The notes under the pieces were generated by a model. The model did no database searches, was not told where the DNA came from, and was given only the letters and a program-made list of their open reading frames with translations. From Fimbriimonas ginsengisoli Gsoil 348 (lineage in GTDB: Bacteria; Armatimonadota; Fimbriimonadia; Fimbriimonadales; Fimbriimonadaceae), in contig NZ_CP007139.1 of assembly GCF_000724625.1 (NCBI RefSeq), positions 4,030,001-4,094,000 of the forward strand: a DNA stretch of 64,000 nt, read 5' to 3'. The translations under genes and the position numbers were made by a program. Shown here piece after piece: positions 25,804-61,761 of the stretch (positions are counted from its first letter, which is position 1; every line of letters starts with the position of its first letter).

Positions 25804-25890
25804 GTAGCGTCGGCGTCCGCGCCGATGATTCCGGTGTACCTTCGGTACACCGGGCGGCACACGTAGGTGCCGGCTACACGGCTTCGCCGT
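25804..25890. repeat. Dispersed hairpin repeat, copy 1
   Basis: GTAGCGTCGGCG...CGCCGATGATTCC followed by GGTGTACC-TTC-GGTACACC, then a further ACGGC-TTC-GCCGT hairpin at about 25879-25891. The same two-hairpin unit recurs at 34704 and 50798-50880. Confidence 0.82.
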
Positions 25891-37719: not shown

Positions 37720-37913
37720 TTCTTCTGATCGAGGCGCCTAACGATCTAAGGTGCGTCCCCGCACGGATCCCTGAATCAGCGCTGAAGGCGCGGTGTCTCA
37801 AAGCCAAGGGCGAGCGAAGCGTAACCCTGGTAAAGGTGCTTTCCACCGTAGGGAAGCGGGACCTCCAGAACCGCACCTGCAATTTCCCTGTCCGAATGAA
37901 TGGGTAAACAAAC

Positions 37914-40641: not shown

Positions 40642-41688
40642 ATGGATATGCCGGATGAGGCGATCAGTTATCGGTCGGCGGGAGTCGATATCGACGAGGC
40701 GCAGCGGGCTCTCCGCGCGGTGACACCAAGGATTCAATCCACCCATAACGATGCCGTCATCGGCGGAATCGGTGGCTTCGGCGGGCTCTACCGCGGAGTT
40801 TTTCCGGAGATCGACAAACCGATCCTCGTTAGCTCGATCGACGGGGTCGGAACCAAGACCAAGATCGCGGCGATGGTAGGGAACCACTCCGGGTTGGGTC
40901 ACGACATCGTCAACCACTGCGTCAACGACATTCTCTGCCAAGGGGCGCGGCCGCTTTTCTTCTTGGACTACTACGGCTGCTCCCGCCTGGAGGGCCTGGT
41001 TTTCGAAGAGATCGTCTCCGGCATGGCGGATGCCTGTCGGGACGTCGGCTGCGCGCTGATCGGCGGCGAAACCGCGGAGATGCCGGGGGTCTATACCGAT
41101 GGCGAGATCGACGTGGTCGGCGCGGTTGTCGGCCTCGCCGACGCGGACCGGAAGCTTCCGAGAGGGAAGATGCAGCCGGGCGACTCGGTGATCGGAATCG
41201 CGAGCAACGGATTGCACACCAACGGTTTCTCGCTCGCCCGTCGAGTGCTGTTCGACGTGGGTGGGCGCTCGGTGCGCGACGAGGTTCCCGGACTGGGCAG
41301 GTCGATTGGAGAAGAGCTGCTTCGGCCCCACCGCTGCTACTTCAACTCGGTCTATCCGATCGTGCAGGAGCTCGAGCGGGTTTATGCGGTCGCCCACGTT
41401 ACGGGAGGCGGTCTCTACGACAACTTGCCGCGGGTGCTCCCTTCGGATGTTCGGCTCGTGATCGAGAAACGAAGCTGGACGCCGCTTCCGATCTTCCAAT
41501 TGATTCAAGCGACCGGCAACGTCCCCGATGTGGAGATGTACCGGACTTTCAATATGGGAATCGGCATGGTGATCATCGTCGACCGAATGGACGCCGCGGG
41601 CGTGGTCCAGCGGCTCAACGAGGCGGGCGAGTCGGCCGCCGTCATCGGCGAAGTCCAAGCGGGCTCGCCGGACGTCCAAATAGTGTGA
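40642..41688 (+). CDS. purM: PurM, AIR synthetase
   Basis: 348 residues from ATG 40642, matching the usual 340-350; the frame is open upstream to 40546 but that part is not PurM-like. Motifs: YRSAGVDIDEAQRAL, SIDGVGTKTKIAA, HDIVNHCVNDILCQGARPLFFLDYYG, GCALIGGETAEMPGVY, GIASNGLHTNGFSLARR and HVTGGGLYDNLPRVLP. It closes the imidazole ring of FGAM with ATP in purine synthesis. No other pur gene is in the window. The downstream lipoprotein gene overlaps its stop by 4 nt. Confidence 0.95.
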   Translation: MDMPDEAISYRSAGVDIDEAQRALRAVTPRIQSTHNDAVIGGIGGFGGLYRGVFPEIDKPILVSSIDGVGTKTKIAAMVGNHSGLGHDIVNHCVNDILCQGARPLFFLDYYGCSRLEGLVFEEIVSGMADACRDVGCALIGGETAEMPGVYTDGEIDVVGAVVGLADADRKLPRGKMQPGDSVIGIASNGLHTNGFSLARRVLFDVGGRSVRDEVPGLGRSIGEELLRPHRCYFNSVYPIVQELERVYAVAHVTGGGLYDNLPRVLPSDVRLVIEKRSWTPLPIFQLIQATGNVPDVEMYRTFNMGIGMVIIVDRMDAAGVVQRLNEAGESAAVIGEVQAGSPDVQIV

Positions 41689-42041
41689 CGGTGCGCGCCT
41701 TGGCTTTCCTATCCCTATCGCTTTGCCTTTTGGCGCTCGGATGCTCGTCCGGCTCGCCACAATTGTCGGTTCACAACACAGGTCCGTTCGGAGCCACGGT
41801 ATGGGCGCTGGACGGGAGCGGCCCGAAGCCCCAGTGGAAGGAGCTCGGGGTCGTAGGCACCTCTGAAACGAAGGAATTCGACCTCGGCTCGTTAGCCCCG
41901 AACAAGAATTTGCGCGTTCAGTGCGGTCCGTCGCCGGTCCAGATTCTCGCCATAAGCAACAAAAGCTCCGGTGGCTGTAGCCGGCCAAAAGCGGGAGTCT
42001 TAATCGACTCGCAGGGTCGAGCCGATCTTACGAACGGATGA
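41685..42041 (+). CDS. Small lipoprotein
   Basis: 118 residues from GTG 41685. The signal TVRALAFLSLSLCLLALGCSSGS ends in a LALGC lipobox. The mature part is about 95 residues of beta-type sequence with no recognised domain and two further Cys residues (QCGPS and GGCSR) that could form a disulfide. Coupled to purM by the GTGA overlap, although a functional link to purine synthesis is not apparent. Confidence 0.72.
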   Translation: MTVRALAFLSLSLCLLALGCSSGSPQLSVHNTGPFGATVWALDGSGPKPQWKELGVVGTSETKEFDLGSLAPNKNLRVQCGPSPVQILAISNKSSGGCSRPKAGVLIDSQGRADLTNG

Positions 42042-42049
42042 GCCGTTTG

Positions 42050-42700
42050 CCCGATTGCAGCGGGTTCCCCGGAACCTTTTGGTTCAGGTTTAAGATGTGA
42101 TGGACTTCGCCTCACCACCAGACGAGGTAACCGTGCGGAGCGCAAAGAGGTTTGCCGTAGCCTGAACCGCCCACGCATGGCACCCCGATCCCGGCATTCG
42201 GGCTAACTTAGAGGTTCAAAAGCCCGCTTTGCGGGCGGCGGACGAGGCGTCCGTGAACCCAGATGCGGGCGGGTCGCCCGCGCTCCAAGAGATTTAGTCG
42301 GCGCGATTGCCCCGATCCCGGAGGGATCAAAGAAATTAGCCGCGGGTCGGAGCCCCGGGGACAAGGAACCCACAAGCCTCCCCGACCCCGGCAGGCGGTC
42401 GCAGAGCCCATCACCAGGCGCGAACTGAACTGTCGGCGGCGACGCTGGCATGAAGAACGATAGGTGCGGGTAACGACGAGCTCCACTCAGGGGCGAGATT
42501 CGTCTGAAGATGGTTTGCCGCATTGGGGGACGCAACCCCGTTGGGGTTAATGAGATTGTCGGCCTTGGTACCAGGGTAGGACTCCGCTGCGCGGGTCCAA
42601 CCCTTCGCTGGGGACGGAACCTCTTCGAGGTTCGGGAGGGTATCCGCGGCGTGGTATCGGTGGAACGCTAGGCAGGGTGCCGCCTATCGGTTGGGCGTCG
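42050..42700. repeat. Non-coding block made of short hairpins with 3-nt loops
   Basis: This 717-nt gap has no convincing gene on either strand. It holds a string of small perfect hairpins: GCCCGC-TTT-GCGGGC (42222-42236), CGGACG-AGG-CGTCCG (42239-42253), both inside a GGTTC/GAACC stem (42213-42259), GATCCC-GGA-GGGATC (42314-42328), AACCCC-GTT-GGGGTT (42534-42548), GAACCTC-TTC-GAGGTTC (42617-42633), and overlapping GGTTCC/GGAACC and GAACC/GGTTC hairpins at 42063-42085. Such density is far above chance. It could be a structured RNA, a degenerate mobile element or a palindrome cluster. Confidence 0.75.
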
Positions 42701-42758
42701 GAATCGCTTCTGGTGATTGGTGCTTGGTGCGCGTTTTTGAAGTAGGCTGCGAATTGAG

Positions 42759-43322
42759 ATGAAGGTTCGAACACTTATCCTCGCCGTTTTGGCCGTCCTA
42801 CCGTTAGCGGCGGCCGGCGCCACGCCGTCCTCCGATTCCGTGATGGCCAAGGCTCGTGCCGAAGCAAAGCGCAGCGGGAAGAACGTTCTGGTCATCTTCC
42901 ACGCCTCGTGGTGCGGTTGGTGTAAAAAGCTCGATAAGATGCTGGAGAGCAGCGACGCCGGACCGGCAATGTCCAAAGCGTTCGTGATCGTGCACCTCAC
43001 GGTGGATGAGAGCAAAGACAAGAAAGATCTGGAGAATCCCGGAGCGCCCGAATTTCGCGCTTCGCTCGGCGGAGCGGACGCGGGCTTGCCGTTTTTCGCG
43101 GTGGTCTCGCCCAAAGGGAAGGTTCTCGGCAACTCGATCGAGCCGAATAAAGGAAATACCGGCTACCCCTCGGCTCCCCATGAGATCGCGTATTTCATGG
43201 AATTGATGGGCAAGACCACTCCGAAGCTCAAAGATGGCGAGCGCAAGAAGGTTGAGGCTTACCTGCGAGCCAACGCCGCTCCGGCGGCGCCGGCCCCGGC
43301 AATCGGCGGCGGCGGCCACTAG
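42759..43322 (+). CDS. Exported thioredoxin-fold protein
   Basis: 187 residues. Signal peptide MKVRTLILAVLAVLPLAAAGA, then a thioredoxin fold with the active site HASWCGWCKKLDKML (CGWC). An insert rich in Lys/Asp (DESKDKKDLENPGA) and LPFFAVVSPKGKVLG lead to a Pro/Ala/Gly-rich tail. Related proteins are periplasmic thiol-disulfide exchangers or DUF255/Thioredoxin_7-type proteins. No DsbD or cytochrome genes are adjacent. Confidence 0.82.
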   Translation: MKVRTLILAVLAVLPLAAAGATPSSDSVMAKARAEAKRSGKNVLVIFHASWCGWCKKLDKMLESSDAGPAMSKAFVIVHLTVDESKDKKDLENPGAPEFRASLGGADAGLPFFAVVSPKGKVLGNSIEPNKGNTGYPSAPHEIAYFMELMGKTTPKLKDGERKKVEAYLRANAAPAAPAPAIGGGGH

Positions 43323-61698: not shown

Positions 61699-61761
61699 GT
61701 ACCTTTGGTACGGCGGGACAAGGGCTGGAAGCCCTTGGAACCCACTGGCAAGATGCCAGTG
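61699..61761. repeat. Three adjacent triloop hairpins
   Basis: GTACC-TTT-GGTAC (61699-61711), CAAGGGCT-GGA-AGCCCTTG (61719-61737), and CACTGGCA-AGA-TGCCAGTG (61743-61761). Same style as the block at 42050-42700, here just ahead of the 61770 gene. Confidence 0.8.

Follow-up and report, generated by a model that had tools for sequence, protein, structure and literature searches.

Dispersed three-hairpin repeats form an intergenic mosaic in Fimbriimonas ginsengisoli and are probably associated with Y1/HUH transposases carrying subclass 1.2 motifs

Several described systems pair a Y1/HUH transposase gene with hairpins located on either side of it. In REP/BIME and RAYT systems, also known as “REPtrons” (PMC2817692, PMC8266576), the gene is flanked by inverted hairpin elements that are also dispersed between genes; there is one element family per enzyme, elements occur as paired inverted copies, and gene copies are few and divergent. 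A canonical REP is a palindrome of 20-40 nt with a GTAG or CGTC foot, with CGTC REPs having loops of 4-5 nt, and RAYT enzymes are recognized by a YxxNP motif. Known relatives of these enzymes bind folded, single-stranded hairpins, exploiting irregularities in the stem, and the Stenotrophomonas TnpAREP cleaves at a CT dinucleotide (PMC8266576). Di Nocera 2013 (PMC3733652) described “TIRtrons,” RAYT-like genes bounded by long terminal inverted repeats, which certain species also carry in dispersed form; Quentin 2018 (PMC6006769) placed the corresponding TIRYTs in subclasses 2.1, 2.2, and 2.5, not in 1.2. IS200/IS605 insertion sequences likewise have a Y1/HUH transposase between hairpin ends, typically with several near-identical copies per genome. 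Lastly, Quentin 2018 defined a TnpAY1 subclass 1.2, found mainly in Cyanobacteria and Bacteroidetes, with “no” entered in its REP column and described as being without IS properties (PMC6006769).

Here, we describe a hairpin-rich intergenic stretch in the genome of Fimbriimonas ginsengisoli Gsoil 348 (5.23 Mb, a single contig), located within “the window,” the whole 64,000-nt stretch of DNA that was analyzed. We consider it very probable that this intergenic stretch is a mosaic of DNA hairpins associated with transposases, and that its family A and family B elements (Table 1) are non-autonomous copies of the ends of Y1/HUH genes with subclass 1.2 motifs, an assignment made by motifs and length (about 148 aa).

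The hairpins lie in a 717-nt spacer (42042-42758) between a lipoprotein-like gene and a thioredoxin-like gene. An earlier note on this DNA had described at least seven hairpins with 3-nt loops (“triloops”) and stems of 5-8 bp, a three-way junction, and no gene. The spacer does contain seven perfect triloop hairpins with stems of at least 5 bp (mean of 0.94 and maximum of 4 in 200 shuffles), and six with stems of at least 6 bp, as against 0.26 expected (maximum of 2); these counts rule out chance hairpins in GC-rich DNA. The seventh hairpin (42269-42281) overlaps another (42265-42281), leaving six independent hairpins with stems of 6-7 bp; stems range from 5 to 7 bp, and none has 8. The junction, in which GGTTCA...TGAACC encloses two triloop hairpins, is present in the MFE fold. 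Loops of 4 nt and of 6-8 nt show no clear enrichment over shuffles in the spacer, and the counts for 5-nt loops come from identical triloop hairpins read one pair shorter. The tested ORFs of the stretch have no Pfam domain, in agreement with the earlier note and ruling out a missed coding gene. Elsewhere in the window, 25831-25853 is a perfect 10-bp triloop hairpin (CCGGTGTACCTTCGGTACACCGG), the longest-stemmed of the window, and two adjacent 8-bp triloop hairpins (61719-61737 and 61743-61761) are possibly another repeat in this style.

Table 1. Features of the hairpin-rich spacer and related elements; positions are those of the 64,000-nt window.
Feature	Position	Strand	Remarks
Divergent three-hairpin element	37766-37874	-	R2 E 1.5e-4; R1 E 0.013; resembles the element at the L039 transposase
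Small lipoprotein-like gene	41685-42041	+	Left neighbor of spacer
Possible family A end remnant, weak	42183-42210		CCCCGATCCCGG..., TTAG; 12-nt repeat common to family A
Family C	42207-42286 (block about 42191-42299)		Junction 42213-42259, then hairpin 42265-42281 with GCTCC tail
Triloop hairpin	42222-42236		Perfect, stem at least 6; within three-way junction, family C
Triloop hairpin	42239-42253		Perfect, stem at least 6; within three-way junction, family C
Triloop hairpin	42265-42281		Perfect, stem at least 6; family C, then GCTCC tail
Family A three-hairpin element	42302-42416	-	R2 E 2.3e-7 at 42302-42409; R3 110 bits at 42308-42416
Triloop hairpin	42314-42328		Perfect, stem at least 6; family A, HP3 read on - strand
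Family B three-hairpin element, complete	42525-42644	+	R1 134 bits (R1 built partly from it); R2 84.8 bits, E 6e-21
Triloop hairpin	42534-42548		Perfect, stem at least 6; family B HP1
Family B central imperfect hairpin	about 42573-42604	+	GCT at 42607-42609
Triloop hairpin	42617-42633		Perfect, stem at least 6; family B HP3
Thioredoxin-like gene	42759-43322	+	Right neighbor of spacer

BLASTN of the stretch against its own genome yielded 53 further partial matches, arranged in separate blocks. The stretch is therefore a mosaic of at least three dispersed elements, which we refer to as families A, B, and C, and not one structured RNA or one designed element. This disposes of the single designed element proposed in the earlier note and favors its suggestion of a mobile element with REP-like subunits; a lack of other copies in the genome, which the note had named, together with a lack of transcript, as evidence against its view, was not what we found. 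In the family alignments, element boundaries are visible and hairpins are preserved by paired changes. Family C, with 18 genome matches at E ≤ 1 (itself included), is weaker than A and B, and the likeness of the possible remnant to family A was judged by eye beyond the shared 12-nt repeat. No convincing copies of 42042-42182, 42417-42524, or 42645-42758 were found in the same genome.

The three-hairpin element is about 110 nt long and consists of a triloop hairpin, a linker, an imperfect central hairpin, and a second triloop hairpin. In family B, the order is GGGGACG, HP1, a linker of about 25 nt, the central hairpin, GGGGACG again, and HP3. R1, a covariance model trained on 12 copies from the same genome, has 76 matches there at E ≤ 0.1, with E below 0.001 for 65 of them. 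A second model (R2), which holds elements from other genomes only and no own-genome sequence, although it was gathered with R1, has 96 matches at E below 0.001; a third (R3) was built partly from the family A copy in the window (42308-42416). R2 detects both window elements, family A being on the other strand. Because R2 was gathered with R1, its detection of family B is partly expected; more telling is that it detects family A, for which R1 had reported no match in the window. With three hairpins in about 110 nt and a consensus foot of GACG, these elements are distinct from the short palindromes with GTAG feet of described REPtrons. CGTC-tagged REPs were ruled out, since their loop and stem sizes differ.

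Y1_Tnp matches number 13 in the genome, and one kind among them comprises five full-length and two broken genes. The five full-length enzymes are 147-151 aa long and carry the motifs DH[VI]H, WQ, and YxxxQxxHH; in the one encoded at C1:18654-19103, Cys replaces the catalytic Tyr. R2 matches are found on either side of each of the five intact genes, with weak scores (16.7-27.4 bits) for the ends of L041 and L043. The gene at C1:4494039-4494482 has two family B elements per side, inverted and with HP1 towards the gene, and relatives of family A flank the gene at C1:4511960 and the broken gene at C1:2983114. The earlier note had suggested a target of a REP-associated transposase and proposed a search for the enzyme; Y1/HUH genes flanked by the same elements are what this search returned. 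Two of the transposase genes, L041:2121-2573 and L043:2152-2604, are near-identical; the L043 copy reads SCIQNQEAHH, and is probably inactive because Cys occupies the position of the catalytic Tyr. The transposase genes are under purifying selection, with dN/dS of 0.05-0.14 in nine computable pairs.

Judged by its sequence, the cognate enzyme of the main elements is not an ordinary RAYT. RAYTs have YxxNP where these enzymes have YxxxQxxHH, and against the NCBIfam RAYT model for YxxNP enzymes (NF047646) the three-hairpin enzymes score at most 23.9 bits, with a cut-off of 80. They are at or near the cut-off of the NCBIfam IS200 model, and their profile matches ISHp608 TnpA (E 1e-8), indicating a homologous catalytic core. 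Length and motifs are those of subclass 1.2; the differences are that the published enzymes are listed without REPs, and that ours have three-hairpin elements and come from phyla other than the Cyanobacteria and Bacteroidetes that dominate the published set.

Family C probably has a different partner. The protein encoded by L048:1785-2384 (C1:31784-32383) passes the NCBIfam RAYT model (91.4 bits, cut-off 80), and its gene has inverted repeats with the same layout as 42239-42286, i.e., a double hairpin (42239-42281) followed by the GCTCC tail. Given this layout and one 22-nt match (E 0.007), we have moderate confidence that family C belongs with the canonical RAYT at L048. This one genome hosts several RAYT systems, separate from each other: each of the class-2 Y1 transposases L045, L046, L048, and L050 comes with short inverted repeats specific to it (92-100% identity). 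In the case of L046, a longer dehydrogenase-like ORF contains the Y1 domain in the same frame. On many contigs of a genome from the same order (G035), a 34-nt segment of family C (42262-42295) was matched at least 12 times with 88% identity; this hairpin is thus abundant in another family of the order.

Scanning genome contigs with four of the F. ginsengisoli proteins, we obtained 80 named loci in Verrucomicrobiota, Planctomycetota, Armatimonadota, and further phyla, many of them in MAGs and some with doubtful labels (e.g., Treponema denticola). The proteins have DH[VI]H or close variants, plus YxxxQxxHH. At 66 of 79 loci, the two flanks form an inverted repeat with each other within 400 bp; the figure for control windows from the same loci is 0 of 245, at odds with the published absence of REP-like sequences from subclass 1.2; in the other 13 loci, both flanks are present and no such repeat was found. 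Within 300 bp of the gene, the density of R1 matches is 38 times that found elsewhere. Their orientation is also consistent: the nearest match is on the - strand upstream in 43 of 55 cases and on the + strand downstream in 46 of 51. Independently of any model, triloop hairpins with stems of at least 6 bp number 1.23 per 200 nt downstream and 1.34 upstream of the genes, as against 0.08 in controls and 0.05 in shuffles, with other loop sizes much less enriched. Among 101 genomes of the class, 23 have gene and element, 7 the gene only, 4 the element only (1-2 copies each), and 67 neither (Fisher p 8e-13, in a test that ignores shared ancestry). In Bacteroidota, one of the phyla for which subclass 1.2 was described, a three-hairpin element lies on either side of a Persicobacter plasmid gene (E 1e-10 and 5e-9), and the inverted repeats of a Bernardetia relative are built differently. 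Overall, the genes lie between inverted copies of genome-dispersed elements, which is the layout of RAYTs and REPtrons.

Do the hairpins act as DNA or as RNA? The earlier note had raised the possibility of a large non-coding RNA, and had called for covariation analysis with other copies. In the cross-phylum alignment, all 21 pairs show changes on both sides, and the covariation score is above that of every shuffle and every slid version, in an alignment that was fitted to the model and so favors structure. A functional RNA is expected to tolerate G-U pairs, while a hairpin read as DNA is not. Counted from alignment tables, G-U makes up 21 of about 2895 paired cells of the elements (0.7%) and 91 of 794 in SRP RNA of the same class (11.5%; L219, with coordinates that are off, was left out), the two alignments having been made in different ways. 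The difference points to folding as DNA, as an argument rather than a proof. That the stretch is one large structured RNA is therefore hardly credible: dense packing of hairpins is in its favor, but no Rfam family reaches the gathering score in the stretch, its blocks occur separately elsewhere in the genome, the covarying helices are not G-U-tolerant, and whole-stretch folding is not unusually good relative to shuffles (z of -1.1 on the + strand and -2.1 on the - strand), which argues for separate small hairpins. It is also improbable that copies are retained for roles in transcripts, as mRNA stabilizers, attenuators, or terminators, with the transposase link being mere history. Such roles have been proposed for REPs (PMC3733652), and 114 nt separate the family B copy from the thioredoxin-like gene that follows it on the same strand; against this, the pairs covary almost without G-U, and the only terminator-like site (42062-42077) lies outside elements A-C and is not above shuffles. 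Transcript roles would be compatible with the main explanation.

A more serious rival would have an ordinary IS family in place of a REP-like system, the elements being ends of active IS200/IS605-type insertion sequences together with MITE-like deletion derivatives of these. The likeness to ISHp608 TnpA and to the IS200 model favors this, as does the position of a homologous Y1/HUH gene between hairpin ends. Abutting element pairs fit as well: eight are in - + order and none in + - order, as if each were a unit minus its gene. We nonetheless regard the rival as unlikely. The ends are far larger than those of IS200/IS605, solo ends are abundant, with single elements far more numerous than genes, and no tnpB was noted in the loci read. 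Gene copies are few and divergent: the F. ginsengisoli proteins share 41-61% identity with the L042 protein, the L041/L043 pair being the only near-identical one, and subclass 1.2 was published as lacking IS properties (PMC6006769).

In the window, families A and B are in - + order about 110 nt apart, like both ends of one unit, and a search for a transposase remnant between them found none. Signs of mobility are found at several loci, the eight abutting - + pairs among them. A decayed unit at L248 (G000:C1:1741500-1742700; unit 1741789-1742429) retains both ends and about the last 60 transposase codons, its interior holding other sequence with its own inverted repeats. In two Verrucomicrobium strains (L114 and L126), one site carries the unit in opposite orientations, with 72% identity between units and 88-91% between flanks. 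In the genus of the window, a repeat-rich island at one site differs in transposase gene number between two genomes (L264 in G013 and L265 in G014), two against one, and its elements are rearranged. Neither comparison yielded a clean empty site; both show rearrangement. At relatives' thioredoxin loci, examined for synteny around an empty site, no purM, lipoprotein, or rluD homologue was found within the flanks covered.

Under the transposase-associated reading, the window elements are most likely non-autonomous and moved as single-stranded DNA. An A-A mismatch is conserved in the central hairpin (84% and 89%), and 97-98% of aligned copies have CT after this hairpin, making it nearly invariant. 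A model-free check, taking in each stretch the longest hairpin other than a triloop, found CT after it in 39 of 77 stretches downstream and 28 of 74 upstream, and no preference for a following CT at triloop hairpins. By analogy with the known enzymes, the central hairpin and CT form a putative recognition and cleavage module, to which the triloop hairpins would be accessory. We infer that an element would fold while the DNA is single-stranded, e.g., on the lagging-strand template, that the transposase would recognize the hairpins and cleave near the conserved CT, and that copies would be joined into new intergenic sites. On this view, those in the window would have arisen by insertion of this type, adjoining repeats of a second, canonical RAYT.

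A full-text search of open-licence papers (text without figures, no preprints) found no three-hairpin elements described for this enzyme class, and we therefore count them as new, within a known type of system. TIRtrons come close, having a Y1 gene between long inverted repeats; they differ by enzyme subclass as given in the published text, and may overlap with the elements described here. Whether subclass 1.2 transposases and three-hairpin elements constitute a separate single-stranded DNA transposition system across several phyla is close to evenly balanced, and we propose it tentatively. In such a system, the end would be composite: a cleavage module of central hairpin and CT, flanked by a pair of triloop hairpins unmatched in REPs or IS200 ends. 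The association provides a cognate DNA partner, across soil and water phyla, for a transposase class described as having none. It makes REP evolution testable outside Proteobacteria, through enzyme-element pairs for which both the recognition hairpin and the cleavage dinucleotide are predicted. It also explains a widespread type of unannotated intergenic repeat, for which the models supply a means of annotation.
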